64,000 nt of DNA, from contig CM056994.1 of the NCBI GenBank assembly GCA_029891345.1, positions 136,158,457-136,222,456 on the forward strand. Direction: 5' to 3'. Below the pieces are notes generated by a model. It was not told the origin of the DNA, did no database searches, and saw nothing but the letters and a program-made list of their open reading frames with translations. The translations under genes and the position numbers were made by a program. Source of the stretch: Dryococelus australis. Its lineage: Eukaryota > Arthropoda > Insecta > Phasmatodea > Phasmatidae. Positions 19,459-57,119 of this stretch are shown here, one piece after another; the stretch's first letter is position 1, and each line of letters begins with the position of its first letter.

Positions 19459-20393
19459 TACAATCACATTATTATGACCACCTGCTAGAAGTGCCTTCTG
19501 CAGCGTGTAGCCCATGACATATGGCCCGTTATGTGGGCTGGTGAAGTGGGTATATAAGGCGACCGACAGGCCAGCTGTACACAGTGTTCTTCCTGCTGTC
19601 ATGAGTAATTGGGAATACCTGTCATCGAGAATGTGAAGCTCTACGCAGGTGGTTATCAGAATAGGCTGAATTTTGCGTCACGATGCAATTTTTCTAAGAA
19701 TGAACTGTTTACAAGCATAATTTTTTTCAATTGTTGCACAGATTATTGTGAATGATTTTAGATGGTTATTTAATTTTTTTATTGTCCTATATGGATGCCA
19801 TAATTTCTAAATTCCATAAAATGTCCAGTAGCATGGATGTCTCAGACCACACTTTTACAGATAAATGTATATTTCAAGTGGTTATTTTAATAACTAACAA
19901 TTAACTAAGGCCAGCCTCATAAAAATATTTTTTTAAGGGCTGATTTGTTCAAATAAATATTTTTTTTTGTTTGTTAAAAACTGTGTTACATGTGTTTGAA
20001 AAATTGTCCTCAAAGTCTCATGTCTTTAGCATGGACAGTATTTAAGAGAATCTAAATGAAAAAGTATATTTAGTTTTCCACTTTTTTCTGGAGTAAATTT
20101 ATTTACCTTTACTCTAGGTTGGCTGCACTGGTTTCAAATTGGAGGGAAAAGTTATAAAAAAAAGTGTGTATACCTATTGTGAATGTATTTTTCAGGTGAG
20201 TACGAAAATTGTACGTTATTAGTATGGATTGAGTTCTGGCTAAGTTGTTAATGATAAATTAAAATGTTAGTAACCATTTAAAAGCCAAGTGATGGTATAA
20301 ACGTCATGAAAAGTTTCATACTGAGTGATCTTTACACATTGAATATAATTTTAGTTAACCTAACTATTGTCCATAGCATGGACACACTCAAGT

Positions 20394-20430
20394 GTCTTTA
20401 GCATGGATTGTTTTCATCCATGCTAAAGAC
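20394..20430. promoter_or_regulatory. perfect 15-bp hairpin upstream of the lysine-rich ORF
   Basis: GTCTTTAGCATGGAT (20394-20408) and its exact inverse ATCCATGCTAAAGAC (20416-20430) enclose a 7-base loop. The same core occurs unpaired at 19829 (TAGCATGGAT), 20022 (GTCTTTAGCATGGACA) and 20373 (ATAGCATGGACA). The hairpin lies 76 bases before the likely start codon at 20507. It may be a transposase-binding site or an RNA element. Confidence 0.8.
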
Positions 20431-20506
20431 TAAGAATATATGCTACAGACACATTTATATATCATTGCAGTTCAGACTTACCTGTATTTTATCATTGTTG
20501 CAGCCA

Positions 20507-23067
20507 ATGGCTAGAACCAAGGGGCCTTTAAGCAATGAAGAAAGGTTGAAGCGGAAGAGAGAGTGTGAGAAAAGGAGGCGTGGGGGAAAAAAAAGCGCTG
20601 AAAGAAAAAAAAACATGAAATCTACTTAAAGGCAAAAGAGTTGGGAAAAGTTAAGTTGGTGAAAGACATGAATTCATGTGAGAGAAGAATGTATAGAAAG
20701 AAGTGGAGAACAGAAAAAAAAGTACAGGCACAAGAAAAAAGAATGTGAAGAAAAAATGAACACTTTTGTCAGAGAGAATACGCCAGAGACTTCAGATAGT
20801 GATGAAGAGACAAGTGAGCCTGCAAGTATACCACATGTACCAACAGTTGCAGAAACTTTGAACACATCACAAAGTATAAAAGAAAGTGGAAGTTGCCAGA
20901 AAAAAAGGGGTAGGAAACAGGTTCACCGGGACAGAGCAAAGGCTTACCGTCAAATAAATAAAGGCCCAAAATGAGAAACTCAGAAAAAAAAAATGAAAAG
21001 TACAAGAAACGATACCAAAGAAGTAGCTTGGGCGTGAGCAGCAAGCAAGATTTGACATCTAAAACTAAGGTAAAAATATTAAGAGGGAGAAATATAGGAA
21101 AGGATATCAGAAAAAAGCTTCCGTTTGGTGGAGTGATTCCCAAAGAGTAATCAGAAAACTATAAGAGGTTAAAATCAAGTCAGAAAGAGAAGCAAATATT
21201 TACTAAAGCCATATTTGGAAAGATTATCAAGAAGTATAGACTTGCAAAAAAGGCAAAGAAGTTTCTTTCTCGCTCAATTGTAAAGGGTAACACAAAGCGA
21301 TTCAAGAACTTATGCTATGGACGAATGAAAAGGAATATAGTAGAGTATACTCAAAATGCGGTAACAACTTTTCTGGAACAGGATGACAACTCGTGTTTAT
21401 GTCCTAAGAAGAAAGACGTTAATTTCAAGGAAAGATATATAGAAGCAAAAAATATATATTTGGCACACTATCAGAAATCTCCACCTCAAGTTCCAACGCA
21501 TTCAGAGTTTTCAAATAAGCAATCCTGCTTTTTGTAGACTGCGCCCCTTTTGGATAGTGGCACTAAAGGTGAGTGATCGAGACACATATCTGTGTTATAC
21601 ATGAGAACTTTAAATTGATAGTGCAGAAAATGCATTTGTTAAAAGTTGTTGACACAAATGATGAAGGGAAGTTAGTTAAAATGTTGATATGAGAGGAAAA
21701 AACAGAAGATTGTTACAGAAGGGTGTGTGCTCTTTGTAAATATAAAAGTGTGTGTTACAAAGACTTTGACTATCACCAACAAGTGGCTGTAAAGCAGTGG
21801 ATAACTGAGAAAAAGAAAGTTGTAAGTAACAAGACAAAATTGGAGATTGTAGTAAAGAGGACAATGAAAGATGAAGTACATTTAAGTGTAGGTGATTTAG
21901 TGGACATGTTTGAAAATAGTATAGTGGGTTTCATGCAAACACAAGTTCACAAACAGTAGTATTCAGTCATGTCAAAACAAAAGAAGAATTTACAGTGTAC
22001 AGATCTCCTATTCCACATAGATTTCTCAGAAAATTATATGTGCAAATATTCTGCTGAAGAACAGTCTGTTCACTTTGGGGCTTCCCACTGGTGTATTTTA
22101 TGCAAAAAGTGGTATAAAAACAGTCATTAGGCACTTTATCCAAAAACCAGCATCACGATGTCTTTGCCATAGTTGCACATATGTTTCCAATAATACAGAA
22201 GTATTTAGCTACACTTCCAGATGTTAGAAACTCACATTTCTATTCAGACAGTCCAAGTACACAATACCGTAATAAAACCATGTATACAATGATAAAATAT
22301 TACATTCCTAGCATTGAGAAAATTACTTGGAATTACTCTGAATCTGACCATGGTAAGGGGACCCCAGATAACAGAGGAGGTCTTCTAAAATGTACTATCA
22401 TATGCAAGTACTACCATCTGGGAACGCAGATTCCAACTTCATTATCGGAACATGGTAATAGATTAATTATTATTTATGAGTATATAAACGTAGCCATTTA
22501 TTTTTATCCATTGTTGAAGCTAGTGTATTAGATTTTTCATAAAATGTTTTGTATACATGTGAAACCCCTCATTTACACCCTGTGATTATACTTTTTTTTT
22601 TCTTTGGTCCTATTCACTGTTTTTACATTATAACCTTCCCTCTTTTTAACACTTTCCTGCATTTTACAACGTTTTTTACTGGTCCCTTGAAAAGTGTAGA
22701 TAAGGGGTTTCACTGTATTTCATTATTGTTTTAAAAATCCATTAAACTGTCTATAAAAATTTTTATAATAAATACAAACTTAAGTTAAGCATGTTTTATT
22801 ATTTAGTAAAATCATGTTTCAGATTGTACTGAAGCCTCTAAATGCTCAAGAGTATCCTATGAAATTGGAGACTCGGTAGTTGTGGCCTACAATGGAATCC
22901 ACTACCCAGGCAAAGCAACAGCAGTACATTTTGATGATGTTGAGGTCATGGTAATGCATCCTACAGTTAGAGGGAAATATAAATGGCCAGCACAGAAGAA
23001 CAAAATGAGGTATCCTTTTTATGATGTGGTGAAAAAGATTGGCAATCCTGTACCATGCAGTTCTTGA
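20507..23067 (+). pseudogene. lysine-rich transposase-like protein, decayed
   Basis: The start is taken at 20507, just after an acceptor-like TTGTTGCAG. The N-terminus (MARTKGPLSNEERLKRKREC) is very basic. Frames continue at 20678-20974 with an acidic stretch (SDSDEETSE) between lysine/arginine-rich segments. The 21060-21300 part (KILRGRNIGKDIRKKLPFGG, then FTKAIFGKIIKKYRLAKKAK) also occurs at 27490-27675. Near 22017 comes HIDFSENYMCKYS, near 22240 SDSPSTQYRNKT and near 22338 SESDHGKGTPDNRGG. Together these could supply the D, D and E/D of an RNase-H-like nuclease. The C-terminal frame 22882-23067 has the VVVAYNGIHYPGKATAV and KYKWP blocks. Several stops and frame changes show it is inactive. 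The nuclease role is inferred from spacing and motifs, not established. Confidence 0.65.
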
Positions 23068-23289
23068 GCAGCAACCTTTACTTTTCAGGATTTCCAGTTG
23101 TAATTTGTTTTCTGCGTAATTGTTGTGAAGTAATTTTTAATGCATTTATTTGGGTTTTCAGTTCTGCCACTGCTTAAGACTTACTTATGAACACTTGGTT
23201 GAGCAAGTTAATTTTTTTCCTTCAGATTTTTAAAACAAGTTTTACATTCCCATAATTCAGTTCAGGAAAATGCAGCCTATTCTGATATT

Positions 23290-24109
23290 CACCCACTGCG
23301 CCACTGGTGTCTGAGGTGAACGTCAACTACGACAATGCATGAAGGCCAACTGACCAGCTACAGTTGAACAGCTCACCATCCAAATGAACTAGGAAGCATC
23401 CAAACACATGTCTACTGCAACAGTTCAGCAAACCTTTCTGGGAATAGGGCTCGAGAGTAGATGGAGAGTGACTTCACCCATGCTAACACAGCTGCATCAA
23501 CAAACACAATTGGAATTTGCTCAACAGAATGGTGACTGGGCTGCTGGTGATTGGTGACAGGTAGCCTTTTCCGATGAGTCACGTTCTCAGCTGTGTAGAA
23601 CAGATGGATGTCGGCTTTTCCGGCGAGAAACGTCAGAGAACCGACACCTTGCATCTACTGCTGGACAAACAAAAGGTGATGGGGGCAGTGTTATGGTCTG
23701 GGGAATGTTCTCGTGATATTCTCTAGGTACCATCACCTGTGTGGAAGCACTCTTCATCAATCTGGTTATGAATTCATCCTTGGCGATAACATCCACCTGT
23801 ACATGATGATTGTCTTTCCTTGGGAGGATGGGATCTTCCAGCATGATAATGCACCTTGCCACACAACTAGAAGTGTCCGCGCGTGGCTGGTACAGCACAA
23901 TCAAGAATTCAAAGTCCTTCCCTCGCCTCCAAACAGCCACAATCTCAATCCAATTGAACATCTGTGGGACCACCTCAATCATCGTGTTCGCTATCTGTCT
24001 CCTCCGTCATGCACCCTTCAACAGTTGTGGGAAGTACTGCAGACAGCATGGCTCTAGGTATCCATGGAGACCTATCACCACCAGACTGAGTCACTGCCAG
24101 CTCATCTAG
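23290..24109 (+). pseudogene. Tc1-like transposase, C-terminal two thirds, decayed
   Basis: The order of motifs is that of a Tc1-like DDE transposase: WQVAFSDESRSQLCRTDGCR near 23560, GGSVMVWGMFS near 23690, then FQHDNAPCHTTRS near 23835, and NLNPIEHLWDHLNHRVR near 23945. All three acidic catalytic residues are still visible (FSDES, HDNAP, PIEHL). I count 36 residues between the second D and the E, rather than the 34 of classic Tc1, which points to a DD36E lineage. Its N-terminal paired-like DNA-binding domain is disrupted or lost around the 3.6 kb insertion. A stop and at least one frame change remain in the catalytic part. The 114-codon frame at 23713-24057 is the longest intact piece. Confidence 0.85.
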
Positions 24110-24181
24110 CTGCTGTCCGTACTGGGAAGTACGATTACTCTCGATACTAGCAGGTGGTCATAATAATGTGATTCGACTGTG

Positions 24182-24340: not shown

Positions 24341-25900
24341 ACTTTTTACTAGGAAGCTCCCTTAATGACAACTGATTTCTTTAATATATTTAAAAGACTT
24401 TCAAGGAGCGTAGGAACTGTCACATGCACATTTGCAATACCCACTGTACTAGATGACTTCCGCCCCAATTTCGAGCATGCCACTCATACAAGGGCAAGTC
24501 ATTACTCGATAACAGTGCTACGGGACATGTGCCTACGTGGTATGTTGGTGCACGTCAAGAGAGAATACAGACATGTGGTCCCAGGTTATACTGTTCACTA
24601 AGAAACTCCAAAAGCCATCACCAGCACCCCCCCCCCCCAATGTAGAATTATATTGTTGGCTGAGACATCGGCACCCTCCAGGATAGCCGAGCTAGTCCTA
24701 CAGCTCGCCACTGGAGGGCAGCACCCAGTCTACTCCAGCAGCTGCAGCCTCCAACACAGACAATAAGAAAGGACCACGCCTCCAGCAGGGGAGATAAGAA
24801 ATGAAAAGCGTCACTTCAGAACCAAAGGTTTCAACCCCAAAGTGCAAGGCTACCTTCCCCTGCAGCATCCCAGCTTCCCACCTGATAACAGTATATAAGG
24901 GATAGCACCCCTTAACTCTAGAGTCTCTGCTCATCCACTGCTTGCAAAGGCAGGATGCACCCACCGGGGTGTGCAACCCTGATACATCGGAGATCCCACC
25001 ACTTACAAAGGCTGGGATTTTCATACCTGTCAGAAAACATCACCGACCAGAAGCTCAACTCTTGAGCAGCCGTTGACTCGCCTCTGCAGCAACACAGATC
25101 CCACATCTTCTGGGAGACTCCACCATACCAGTGGCTCTAGATGACGATATCCTCATCTACCACTCACCTCTTGGTAACCACCAGAACTCCCTTTGGTAGC
25201 AGTTCACGTCGACGTCCTGTCTGGATCTTCTCCAGCCCACTAGACAGTGCAGCTACAACTACCCTTCTGGTAGTTGCAAGTTAGGTTCCTTAACACCACC
25301 TTCTTAATAGTTAGGTGCTGTTAAATGCGTTAGCTATCAAGTTTGACTAATTTGCCAGTTTTATTTTCTTACACCTAGCTCTTTTCCAGGTTGCCTTAAC
25401 ATGGATTTAATGATAGGTTCAGCTTCCGTAATGTTACATTAACTTGATAGGAGTTAGTGTGGAATCATCCTATTTTCAAAATACGTCAATATAGCACGTA
25501 TTATAAAAAATCTTTATGACTGTCATTGGCTGCATTATTCGAAACCCCTTTTTACATGGTATTTCTAGTAACTAATCTCACCCCAGAGGAAAAGCTGGAA
25601 GATGCACAAACCACCAAGGTAGGCACACACACTACTAAGAGGCAAACTGAGCTCTGCCAATTGGTAGATTTTCAGCTGCACCCAAAAGCATTAGGTACTC
25701 CAATCCACTAAGAGAATCGACCAGACCAAGTGTTCCATACTCCGCCACCCGGAAATTCTCTCAAAATAGGCAATATTGCAGTCCCAACAAAATTTTTCTC
25801 TCAATTTAAAATTTATAATGCTATAGAATTTTTCTTACTTTATTATTATTGCAAGTACATTATTATATGAAAATTCAAAACTATTTTGTCGATAGCAAAT
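24341..25900. other. no gene; possible LTR-like block at 24655-25400
   Basis: A C12 run (24627-24638) precedes TGTTGGCTGAGACATCGGCA. This is followed by a GC-rich stretch, a TATATAAG box near 24892 and a T-rich region, which together resemble a retroelement LTR. I found no second copy and no internal domain in the window, so it could be a solo LTR or chance. Frames here have no recognisable motif. Confidence 0.3.
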
Positions 25901-26460
25901 TTTATACAAATTTTAAGTATCTAAAAATCATTCCCTCACACTGTCCCACAAGACATTTTTGAAGGTTAAAAGTTTTTAATGATGGTCCTGAAATGAAGAA
26001 AGTGTATATTAACGAGTATGAAACCAAAGCTAAAATGTAAATGAATCAAACTAATTTTTATATTCATATTTGAACAAAAATGAGTTCCTCACAAAAACTT
26101 GTTCTTTGTCCCAAAGTGATGGTATCATTCCCTCACACAACTCAGTTAAAACACAATACTGGTTGTAGGGAGCAGCACCTTACATTGAAAGGTAAATTCT
26201 ACATCAGAGGAAGCCATTTTGAAATTCATTTACAAGTTACAAGAGTTGGCTTTGTTTGTACAAAGATATCTTTTCATACAAATTCAGAAAAGGTAAGTTG
26301 TGTTTTTGTTACATCATTCCCTCATATAGCATAACTTTTTTATCACTGATGTTGAAAATATGAAATATGTTCAGTTTATTTGCCCATAGGGAGTAGTTAA
26401 ACACATGTGCTTCATAACCTCAAAGACAGTTTGTTGCAGTGTGATACCAATATTGTTTTG

Positions 26461-26509
26461 AAAAGTCATTCCCTAATCATCATTCCTTCATTGCGAGGGG
26501 ATGACTTTT
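26461..26509. promoter_or_regulatory. 14-bp hairpin built from the repeated TCATTCCCT motif
   Basis: AAAAGTCATTCCCT (26461-26474) pairs with AGGGGATGACTTTT (26496-26509), with one wobble. The loop holds a second motif-like copy (TCATTCCTTC) that can alternatively pair with GAGGGGATGA. Its position upstream of the basic coding region mirrors the hairpin at 20394-20430. Confidence 0.72.
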
Positions 26510-27403
26510 GTCTTCTTGTCTGAAAATAACATTTGTGTAGGTAATTTTAACAATAATTAAGTACCGCAGGTACCCCAGTAACCTAAAAAATTAAGTTTAA
26601 GGACATTAACACATTATATAACTTTAATTTATTATAAATATATAATTCTCCAATAGATTTTACATTTTGAAACTATAATAAAAATTGACTAATTGGGGTC
26701 AGGCTAAATTTTATTTATTATTCCTCGCTATATTTCAGGGAATAATTTAAAGTCAATAGGCATACCACATATGTTAGGTCAGGAGCACAATATATAGGCT
26801 AGATATATTCAGCAAAACCTGTAGTCAACAATCTGAATATTATTTATTTTTAAAGTAGCATTCTTTGTTTCTAGGTTCACTAAAATCTCTTTCACAAAAT
26901 GTGTAATATGGTTTATATTGATCTGATTTGTTGCTTTTACTAAAGCTCTTTCCCTCATGTACTTCCCATTTATTTTCAGATTCCTGGATGGAATGGGGAA
27001 AGTCAACAAACATGATGCTAAATTACAGAAATAAGAGTAGGTATGATATAAAGTGAAGTGAGGTCATGAAATTGGATGCAGGAAAACTTCAAGAGATGAA
27101 GGCAAAGGAACATCTGAAATAGGCAAATTAAACCAGTAACTGAAATGAATCCACAGGATCACAGATAGAAAAAGAAACAGTGGAGGAAAAATTCACAGAA
27201 CTACAGGCAAAAATTATCAAAAGTAAAAAGCATTTTTTCTAGTACAGAATTACCTGGTAGTTGTAGCAGTAGTATGGCTGAAGCTCAGCACACTGCATGT
27301 GAAACAGAGAGGGTCCATGACAATATATCTACAAGTAGAAAAGAAGTAGATCGTAAACAAATTAGAAGCAGAATTGAAATATTCCAAAGCTCAAGCAGAA
27401 AAA

Positions 27404-27426
27404 AATATATATATATATATATATAA
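27404..27426. repeat. (TA)n microsatellite
   Basis: A short pure TA run within the lysine-rich element remains. Confidence 0.85.
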
Positions 27427-27690
27427 AAAAGGGCTTACAGGTTAAAACAAGGTAACAGTAAAATAATTATTTAATCCCTGATGACACCCCATAGCAAAGT
27501 GGCTGCTTTAATTAGGAAAGAAAATGTGGCATAATCCACACGAAAGAAACTTCTATTTGGAGAAGTAATATCTTAGCAACTAAGTAATAGTTTCCTTAAT
27601 TTAGGTAAACGTCATATAGAAAAACAAATGTTTTATAAAGTATTAAGAGGGCAAATCATTAAAAAAATCACTGCATCCCTCTTTTGAAAT

Positions 27691-36735: not shown

Positions 36736-36905
36736 GTTGGTGGCAGCCGTTGACAGCAGCCTCTGGGACTGCTGCTGGCTGGTGGTAGGAGCCACTGGAA
36801 CTCCTGGTGGCTGTTGAGAGAAGCCTCTGGAGCTTCTGGTTGTTGGTGGTGGTAGCCTCTGGAGCTGCTGGTAGGCTTCGCTGAAGCCTCTGGAGTTCTT
36901 GGAGA
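36735..36905 (+). repeat. degenerate minisatellite (CTCTGGAGCTGCTGGT-like)
   Basis: Units such as GCCTCTGGAGCTTCTGGT, GCCTCTGGAGCTGCTGGT and GCCTCTGGAGTTCTTGG recur with irregular spacing. The open frames across it are a by-product of the repeat. Confidence 0.6.
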
Positions 36906-40744: not shown

Positions 40745-40830
<86 letters not shown>

Positions 40831-41017
40831 TAATATATATATATTAAATAATAATAATAATAAAAAAACCAGATTAACAACAGTTGTAACTGTGAACCGA
40901 CTGAGCCTAGCAGAACCCCTATTTGTAGTGAACAGGACAATGCTGATAAATGTTCCCCAATGTGTGTGCTGAAGATTTGTAACCTGTATTGTAACATGGC
41001 AGGAAGGCTATGTTGCA
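40003..41017 (+). repeat. LTR-like unit, copy A (about 1.0 kb)
   Basis: It starts TGTAACATTGCAG and ends TGTTGCA, forming the short inverted TG..CA ends of an LTR. Most of it matches 49667-50418 in the same orientation: TTTTATAATTGTTTTTCAGT, GTTTCATTTGTCAGTGAGTG, AAATGTGTATTTTTAGATTT and the AATAAA region before TTCCGACATGG. It is longer than copy B because of extra sequence near 40400-40560 and a TA microsatellite. Five-base target duplications are not evident at either copy. Confidence 0.65.
40725..40860. repeat. compound microsatellite (TC)n-(TA)n-(AAT)n
   Basis: A TCTCTC run passes into about 80 bases of TA and then an AATAAT run. It lies within the LTR-like copy A and is absent from copy B, so it expanded after the two copies separated. 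Confidence 0.95.
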
Positions 41018-55670: not shown

Positions 55671-55815
55671 ATATTCATCTCAATGCTTTCAACATAGTGA
55701 TATTCACCTCGAAGTTCGCAACATAATGATATTAGTCTCAATGTTCTCAACATAATTATATTGCTCTTAATGTTCTCAATGTAATGATATTCATCTCTAT
55801 GTTCTCAACATAATT
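55671..55815 (+). repeat. tandem repeat, five units of 29 bp
   Basis: Five consecutive units of the form ATATTCATCTCAATG then CTTTCAACATAGTG are exactly 29 bases each, with substitutions. No coding reading is supported. Confidence 0.9.
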
Positions 55816-57119
55816 ATACACAAATTTACAGTGCTAGAGAAACAGTACATGTAAACTAAAGAATGTTTATTCTCATTCACTCTACAGCTGTTGTTTTTAA
55901 CCTTTAAACACAATTTTGAATTATTTTTTAATTAATATTAATAAAAGTCTGTTTGGTCTGTTATAGGCTTCAACCAGCAGTAGGTGTATGGACCATACGC
56001 ATAGTTGATTTGTAGTTTAGTGAAGTAAGATCTCTTTTAAATACTACCCTTTTAGACAACTTTCTTAGACTGTTGAAAATTGAGTATTTATTTTGATACT
56101 GAGATATGCTACGCTTGAAACAATTTGACAGTAATGAACACATACCAAAAGAAAGAAGTTTCAAATTCTTTAAATAGGCCTACCCTTAATGAGTTCAATT
56201 GTGTTTGCCAACATAAAAGCCCTATAGAAAAACACGCAATTTTCATCCCCGTAAATTTCACAGTTTCTTACCACAGATAATGAACACTTGCTATTTACAT
56301 ATGATAGAATGTCATTAATTGATTTTCATAAATGCAACGTTGTTGCAGTTTGTGCTTATAGCAAATATATTCTGTGTATCATATAAGAAACGTATCTGGC
56401 ACATTACATGTTGAGACTTTTGGTGTTGTATCAGAATTAACAATATCCATTCTAAACCAATTCATCAACCAACATCCAGCATCACATAAGATAAACACAT
56501 GCCACTTTAACGATTTGACACTCAATGCCTCATTTATTACTCTCGAATCTTGCTTGTCAGAAATTGATTCTGCTGCAACTACTGCAATAGATTTCTCAAA
56601 ACAAAGACATTTTCACTACAGCACACAGTTAAATATTATATTTCTTTAACAATTTTGCTAAACATTAATTTATTTATGCTAATATTTACAATTTTCCACA
56701 CTGCCAAGAATCTGATTTAAATTCTCGTTATAGCAAGTATACTTTAGAAAACAACACATTTGCAGGAAAACCTATTTTGAAAAACTGAAAATTAGGGATG
56801 GGGCGAGTCAATTCTTCGATCCATCAATTCTTACATTTTACTCGGAATCTATTAATCAATGTTTCTGCCATCGATTATAGATTCCTTGTGTCTACATTGC
56901 ATCATATAGCCTATGCTCCTATGAAAGGTATTTTGTTTTAACTGCTGGAAAATACGACGCTGCGACAGAGCTGCGAAGTACTACGGATTTTTTGTAATTG
57001 TTACTGATTGTAACGTCCAGTTACGGAATTACGGAGGCTTCCTTATTTATTACGGAAATTGATAGCCTTAGCCTTAACAATATGTCTGAATTTTTTTGTA
57101 TTTTTTTAGTTCTAATATA
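55816..57119. other. no gene; possible hAT-like terminus near 56800
   Basis: TAGGGATGGGGCGAGTCAAT and the following ATTC/GATC-rich wording (56794-56890) resemble the terminus of some hAT elements. No opposite end or transposase was found. The 91-codon frame at 56374 has no known domain. Confidence 0.35.

Follow-up and report, generated by a model that had tools for sequence, protein, structure and literature searches.

The window, as we call the whole 64-kb stretch analysed here, carries two related elements on the plus strand, E1 and E2. E2 is the 5' half of a truncated and decayed DNA transposon at 25750..27676. An initial annotation had described a truncated relative at 25.9-27.7 kb beginning at 25928; the ends of its relatives place the start at ~25750, since they start at 25751-25756 (at window position 25751 in four of six, L048 being shorter) and match up to 27676. 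The 5' terminal repeat is degenerate in the window and reads GGGTAATTCTCTCAGAATAGGC... in the copy L046. The word TCATTCCCTCA is found at 25928..25938 (site 1, plus strand, offset 181 in aligned copies), 26125..26135 (site 2, plus, identical in all six aligned copies) and 26314..26324 (site 3, plus, an exact match). As annotated, it occurs at these three places, and neither strand of the 64 kb holds a further copy; in 100 dinucleotide shuffles the mean count was 0.02 and none reached three, an enrichment beyond shuffled sequence. A 5' splice-donor-like GTAAGT (26293..26298, plus) lies 21 bp before site 3. At 26461..26509 there is a cluster with plus near-copies at 26466 and 26480 and a minus near-copy at ~26494. 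It contains the 14-bp hairpin already noted, which is indeed built from the E2 word: the 14-nt arms (26461-26474 and 26496-26509, 21 nt between them) are 93% complementary, the left arm holds TCATTCCCT, and another near-copy lies inside the loop.

E1 (19647..~23295, plus) has both ends and a broken coding region. Its relatives carry terminal repeats (GGGTGG...); four of six begin at 19648-19650, and all four copies that reach the end stop at 23294-23295. Its single sites are TAGCATGGAT at 19829..19838, TAGCATGGAC at 20027..20036 and TAGTATGGAT at 20220..20229 (all plus), the third lying 24 bp past a splice-donor-like GTGAGT at 20196. The E1 cluster (20374..20445) holds plus copies at 20374 and 20399 and minus copies at 20416 and 20436, and includes a perfect 15-bp inverted repeat (20394-20408/20416-20430). 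The basic start of the coding region, MARTKGPLSNEERLKRKRECEKRRR..., follows at 20507..20626 (plus), and the catalytic blocks HIDFSENY, SDSPSTQYRNK and WNYSESDHGKG lie in two frames at 21960..22528 (plus). The two loci are related: a match of 28 residues between the E2 fragment and the E1 protein has 12 identities (E 6e-05), and less broken E2 relatives have the catalytic blocks found in E1. E1 is itself nested in another element (19464-24180), which we take to be Tc1/mariner-like, with CACATTATTATGACCACCTGCTAG at ~19465, its inverse near 24147-24172, and transposase-like pieces (HDNAPCHTT..., NPIEHLWDHL) at ~23680-24060.

Relatives were sought in the same genome (3.4 Gb, 646 contigs). The E2 DNA query returned 11 rows and the E1 DNA query 51, many of them a short interspersed repeat inside E1 (22597-22720, ~120 bp matching many genome places at ~75-88%). 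Twelve stretches were taken from these DNA searches. A 76-residue catalytic query gave 346 candidates, of which 150 were scored, and 11 further elements, picked by long open frame or E-value, were read among these matches. A third word, GTCATTCTCCTGG (E3), was common to L055, L056 and L061; a fourth, TGTATCCTCNGT (E4), was found in L060, and a fifth, TGTCACTGGTCTAACA (E5), in L058, together with a perfect 19-bp hairpin. L059 is a deleted E3-type copy that kept one site. The layout was not found in five of the 11 (L057, L063-L066), where the stretch perhaps misses the 5' end. Within the portion of the 76-residue query that matched, identity to E2 was 52% for E1 (L050), 45% for E3 (L055), 54% for E4 and 49% for E5. 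The arrangement proposed for the window, in which every lineage has its word both in single copies and in a hairpin, ahead of the basic coding region, recurs in five lineages.

Fourteen 5' regions of 950 bp were compared (E1, n = 6; E2, n = 3; E3, n = 3; E4 and E5, n = 1 each), leaving aside L045-L048 and L054, whose 5' region is interrupted or not complete, L059, with its one remaining site, and the five elements in which the layout was not found. At two mismatches or fewer, the own-lineage word occurred 5 to 8 times per region and the words of other lineages 0 to 3 times, the three being the short E1 word in L061. Against 300 shuffles, with one region taken per lineage, the own word was observed seven times in the E2 region (mean 0.31, maximum 3), seven in E1 (mean 1.00, maximum 5), six in E3 (mean 0.13, maximum 2), six in E4 (mean 0.03, maximum 1) and five in E5 (mean 0.04, maximum 1). 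The words are therefore concentrated by lineage, as had been suggested; that each lineage has a word to itself held only in part, since the E2 word also stands upstream of more diverged transposases, 48% and 58% identical to E2 where the 76-residue catalytic stretch matched. The check proposed with the annotation, whether the commonest word is also the strongest inverted repeat, gave a positive answer: the two overlapped in 13 of 14 regions, compared with 11 of 60 segments of the window that lie away from the elements, and in 11 of 14 against one of 60 when at least four word copies were demanded. The exception, L051, has no hairpin by the criterion used. Hairpin arms measured 11-18 bp, and the loops varied.

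Near-constant distances between the words, which the annotation did not contain, were seen across lineages. Counted from the 5' end, the single words of E1-E3 lie near 180, 377 and 570 bp and the plus/minus cluster near 725. For sites 1-4, hand-picked from the word scan of the 14 regions, the distance from site 1 to site 2 could be measured in E1-E3 only (E4 has no detected site 2 and E5 no site 1, and for neither of them was the 5' end located). In 11 copies it was 197, 196, 195, 198, 197, 179, 196, 197, 196, 196 and 197 bp, that is, within 195-198 bp in 10 of 11 copies from three lineages. From site 2 to site 3 it ranged from 147 to 215 bp, the 215 bp of E5 including a microsatellite. Site 3 and the cluster were 152-155 bp apart in all 13 copies with both sites, from five lineages (standard deviation 0.99); L050 lacks site 3. 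The two minus copies in the cluster were 20-21 bp apart in 12 of 14 copies, with window E2 and L043 retaining one. The DNA between the sites could not be aligned across lineages: blastn with one region per lineage gave matches of 12-16 bp only, the best of them 14 bp between E1 and E5 at the donor-like site. In nine E1-E3 copies examined, this site, GTRAGT, falls between 531 and 584 bp; it adjoins site 3 in E5 and L061 as well, and E4 has the weaker CAGGTAAT. The cluster would thus fall in a predicted first intron, the acceptor before the start codon being judged by eye. The start codon lies at 860 (window E1) or 964 (L055).

Scanning the whole window for this architecture with a fixed-slot detector, its slots defined after E1-E3 had been seen, gave 409 for E2 and 392 for E1, and the best score elsewhere was 304, which was also the maximum among tiles outside the elements (200 scores, both strands). 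The maximum of 300 shuffles per region was 339 for E2 and 355 for E1. The same detector scored above shuffles in seven of the eight E1-E3 regions tried, L044 being the one that did not. Among the later copies it missed three of five: L058, L060 and L061 did not score above shuffles because sites are missing or the stretch ends. The sites of these three and of L044 come from the repeat search or the word scan instead. Conservation of the sites within lineages was mixed across E1-E3. It reached 0.958 at E2 sites against 0.858 elsewhere (46 of 5000 random placements), and was not clearly higher at E1 sites (0.926 against 0.899; 980 of 5000) or at E3 sites (0.878 against 0.858; 2140 of 5000).

Words were also found near the 3' ends of some copies. 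In both L051 and L053 the E1 word stands ~205 bp short of the 3' end, L051 having a second copy 20 bp on; L050 has a variant at 185 bp. An E2 copy, one base short, is present in L043, and an E3 copy was seen by eye in L062. No 3' word was found in L049 and window E1 (E1) or in L044 (E2). The 3' words keep the orientation of the 5' single sites and are not mirrored. AATAAA stands ahead of the 3' word in L051 and L053; L053 also has ATTAAA after the word, and in L051 the 3' copies follow the sole AATAAA/ATTAAA of the last 420 bp.

The family is a DNA transposon with terminal inverted repeats and 4-bp target duplications and without a Pfam match. The terminal repeats are GGGTGGTTATCAGAATAGGCTGCATTTT / AAAATGCAGCCTATTCTGATATTCACCC in E1 copies, where the 5' end is GGGTGGTTATCAGAATAGGC... 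and the 3' end is inverted, and GGGTAATTCTCT... / ...AGAGAATTACCC in the E2 copy L044. Among five copies with both ends read, the duplication was exact in three (L044 AGCT, L053 CTAA, L049 ATCA) and imperfect in L051 (three of four letters) and window E1 (two of four). Searching the genome for the terminal-repeat pattern was of little use (six matches against one in the control). The transposase fragments carry blocks of the HxDFSENY, SDxPxxQYRNK and WNYxExGHGKGAPDG types. Pfam gave nothing at the cut-off for ten pieces of window E1 and E2 and four pieces of relatives, which do not cover the protein intact throughout; a PDB sequence search gave no match, and no relative was confirmed in viral contigs. 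A literature search with DFSENY returned no paper holding the string among the matches listed. In a predicted structure (mean pLDDT 44.1), viewed for the RNase H-like order of catalytic residues of a DDE/D transposase, HMDFGENY, SDSPSTQYRNK and WNYHEAGHGKGAPDG were placed on or beside predicted strands. The elements share with CACTA/EnSpm a family-specific, repeated subterminal word that is also palindromic; membership is ruled out by the GGGT termini and the 4-bp duplication, as CACTA termini and 3 bp are required. Membership in hAT (Hermes) was likewise rejected, for the duplication is 4 bp and not 8 bp, and no BED finger or hAT dimerisation match appeared in the scanned pieces. The 4-bp duplication is shared with Sola, which we take to be the nearest named superfamily by duplication length, set beside our elements by description only.

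To follow the words beyond the copies already read, word pairs at the expected spacing were searched genome-wide. The E3 pair occurred five times (control, none), and four of the five lay ~2.0-2.3 kb upstream of a catalytic match on the same strand, one being L055. The E5 pair gave three matches (control, none), two of them ~2.3-2.6 kb upstream of a catalytic match, one being L058. The E2 pair gave 33 rows (control, one): 24 came from two tandem arrays, one from a repeat-like place on C9, seven from known E2 copies and one from C6:80243059, where a transposase with 48% identity to E2 follows ~2.4 kb downstream. The E1 pair TTTAGCATGGA gave one match and one control match, perhaps because site 1 of E1 reads CAGTAGCATGGA. 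The E2 hairpin was found at seven distinct places (control, one per strand). L044 is among them, and two others lie upstream of a transposase, C4:157008887 (58%, 1.7 kb) and C1:163777453 (69% over 35 residues, 5.1 kb). The remaining four were not tied to a transposase match; three of these, at C3:127400640, C11:127200204 and C17:286268506, have an identical length of 49 bp and are perhaps another, non-autonomous repeat family. In all, word-pair patterns tied five previously unread loci to a transposase.

The E2 word is thus common to diverged members, yet words differ between others. The basic N-terminal region of E2, used as a query, returned 22 rows, five from E2 copies. Two of the 17 non-E2 matches (C6:80241890 and C4:157007495) carry the E2 word, the other 15 being unread, and none of the E1, E3, E4 and E5 loci that were read is among the 22. 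By catalytic rank (150 scored of 346), E4 stood 8th, C6:80241890 15th and C4:157007495 51st. This fits a word that would follow the N-terminal region; if it does, the matches C4:253387900 and C17:25074101 should carry a TCATTCCC-type word.

We consider it fairly probable that the words serve as subterminal sites to which the transposase of the element itself binds through its DNA-binding part. The near-diagonal matrix of words and lineages, the overlap of commonest word and strongest hairpin, the near-constant distances, the paired minus copies of the cluster, the 3' copies, the conservation of the E2 sites, the N-terminal query and the precedents of Hermes and CACTA all point this way. We counted against it that the 3' words have the same, unmirrored orientation, which a simple symmetric pair of ends would not show, and are missing in some copies; that the sites of E1 and E3 are not clearly better conserved than the DNA around them; that only two of the 17 non-E2 N-terminal matches are known to carry the E2 word; and that the layout was not found in five of 11 further elements, L059 retains a single site and the detector did not exceed shuffles in four copies. 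The words would be read at the DNA level, probably by the basic N-terminal region of the transposase. The 5' single sites and the plus/minus cluster, with one or two 3' sites, would make up a fixed scaffold on which several transposase molecules may assemble both ends for cutting. Transposase on these sites may also repress the gene, because they sit upstream of, and inside, the predicted first intron. When the DNA-binding part changes in a lineage, a new word would arise and the places would be kept. One possible form of this, which we put forward tentatively, is a conserved ruler whose letters may vary: the scaffold distances of ~196 and ~153 bp would be kept, perhaps for helical or nucleosomal phase, and word and reader would be replaced together. 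Each lineage would then be deaf to the transposase of the others.

The words could instead be mainly transcriptional control sites, that is, promoter or first-intron operators read by an element protein or a host factor outside any cutting complex. The 5' sites of E1-E3 lie upstream of the start codon, around the donor-like site and in the predicted first intron, and they are distant from the ends for a synapsis site; the copies near the 3' end in some E1, E2 and E3 elements speak against this reading, which we regard as rather unlikely. An RNA-level signal, in which a first-intron hairpin controls splicing or feeds small RNAs, appears improbable. Such a role would suit the donor-like site adjoining site 3 and preceding the cluster by ~150 bp in all five lineages (in its weaker form in E4), as well as hairpin arms that alter together between lineages, but the same word also stands in single copies upstream and near the 3' end, and the arms measure 11-18 bp with variable loops. 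The 3' copies of L051 past its sole polyadenylation-type hexamer argue in the same direction, more weakly in view of the ATTAAA after the word in L053. The words might also be sites for a host insulator or nucleosome-phasing factor, acquired by the elements. Spacings of ~153 and ~196 bp are close to the length of a nucleosome and of a nucleosome repeat, respectively; that the word changes from lineage to lineage while its places do not would better fit an element-encoded reader, and we give the host-factor reading very little weight. Short words do recur in AT-rich DNA, two-copy repeats are common and the null segments show some word/hairpin overlap, but we take chance repetition in decayed DNA as already refuted by the shuffles, the tiles, the five lineages and the word pairs that led to transposase loci with 0-1 control matches.

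Binding of these words by transposase would belong to a kind of system already known, and the view of the initial annotation that the pattern is undescribed for DNA transposons was mistaken. The subterminal repeats of soybean CACTA elements are specific to the family and form palindromes; a DNA-binding protein encoded by the element is believed to read them, and they to change with it (PMC2613891). In Hermes, a hAT element, BED domains bind subterminal repeats that occur singly and as palindromes (PMC10368747). In CACTA elements (En/Spm, Tam1, Tgmt*), as here, the word varies between families of one species and the transposase is conserved; they differ in their CACTA ends and 3-bp duplication, against GGGT ends and 4 bp, and in dense arrays beside the ends (four repeats in 159 bp, 24 in 732 bp), against a few sites at wide fixed distances here (PMC2613891). 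Hermes likewise uses one motif both singly and in palindromes, with ends that are asymmetric and one binding domain, but has 8-bp target sites and many short motifs concentrated towards its tips (PMC10368747). Galileo, of the P superfamily, has several sites for its THAP-domain transposase inside the end region; these are contained in long terminal repeats that are themselves repetitive, and the outermost is ~70 bp from the end (PMC3688188). Sola elements share the 4-bp target duplications; those of Sola2 are AT-rich (PMC3627910), in contrast to AGCT, CTAA and ATCA here. Among the papers listed by literature searches on regularly spaced subterminal sites, including searches concerned with nucleosomes, none was seen to describe constant wide spacing across lineages with changed words. 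What is new is the fixed distances, the setting in a predicted first intron and the lack of a Pfam match for the family.

It would benefit sibling transposons of one genome to leave each other's copies unmoved and to escape titration by dead copies. A set of words that changes at constant distances is a natural series for the co-change of transposase and site, and the same series could show whether spacing, not sequence, serves assembly. Of all these features, the constraint on spacing most merits experimental work.

Some minor observations were made on the words and the window. The head TGTC before the variable part of the word is common to E1, E3 and E5 (E2 partly, E4 not), in an alignment chosen post hoc, and TCATTC is common to the E2 and E3 words; both are weak leads. 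Another weak lead is L066, which has two TCATTC-like word copies 172 bp apart and no score above shuffles. Tandem arrays contain TCATTCCCTCA in units of ~65 and ~93 bp at C3:16027892-16031079 and C11:10239502-10240256. Elsewhere in the window, tandem repeats occupy 36749-36894, 55671-55818 and 40745-40844 (32/64-bp units, 29-bp units and a (TA)50 run).
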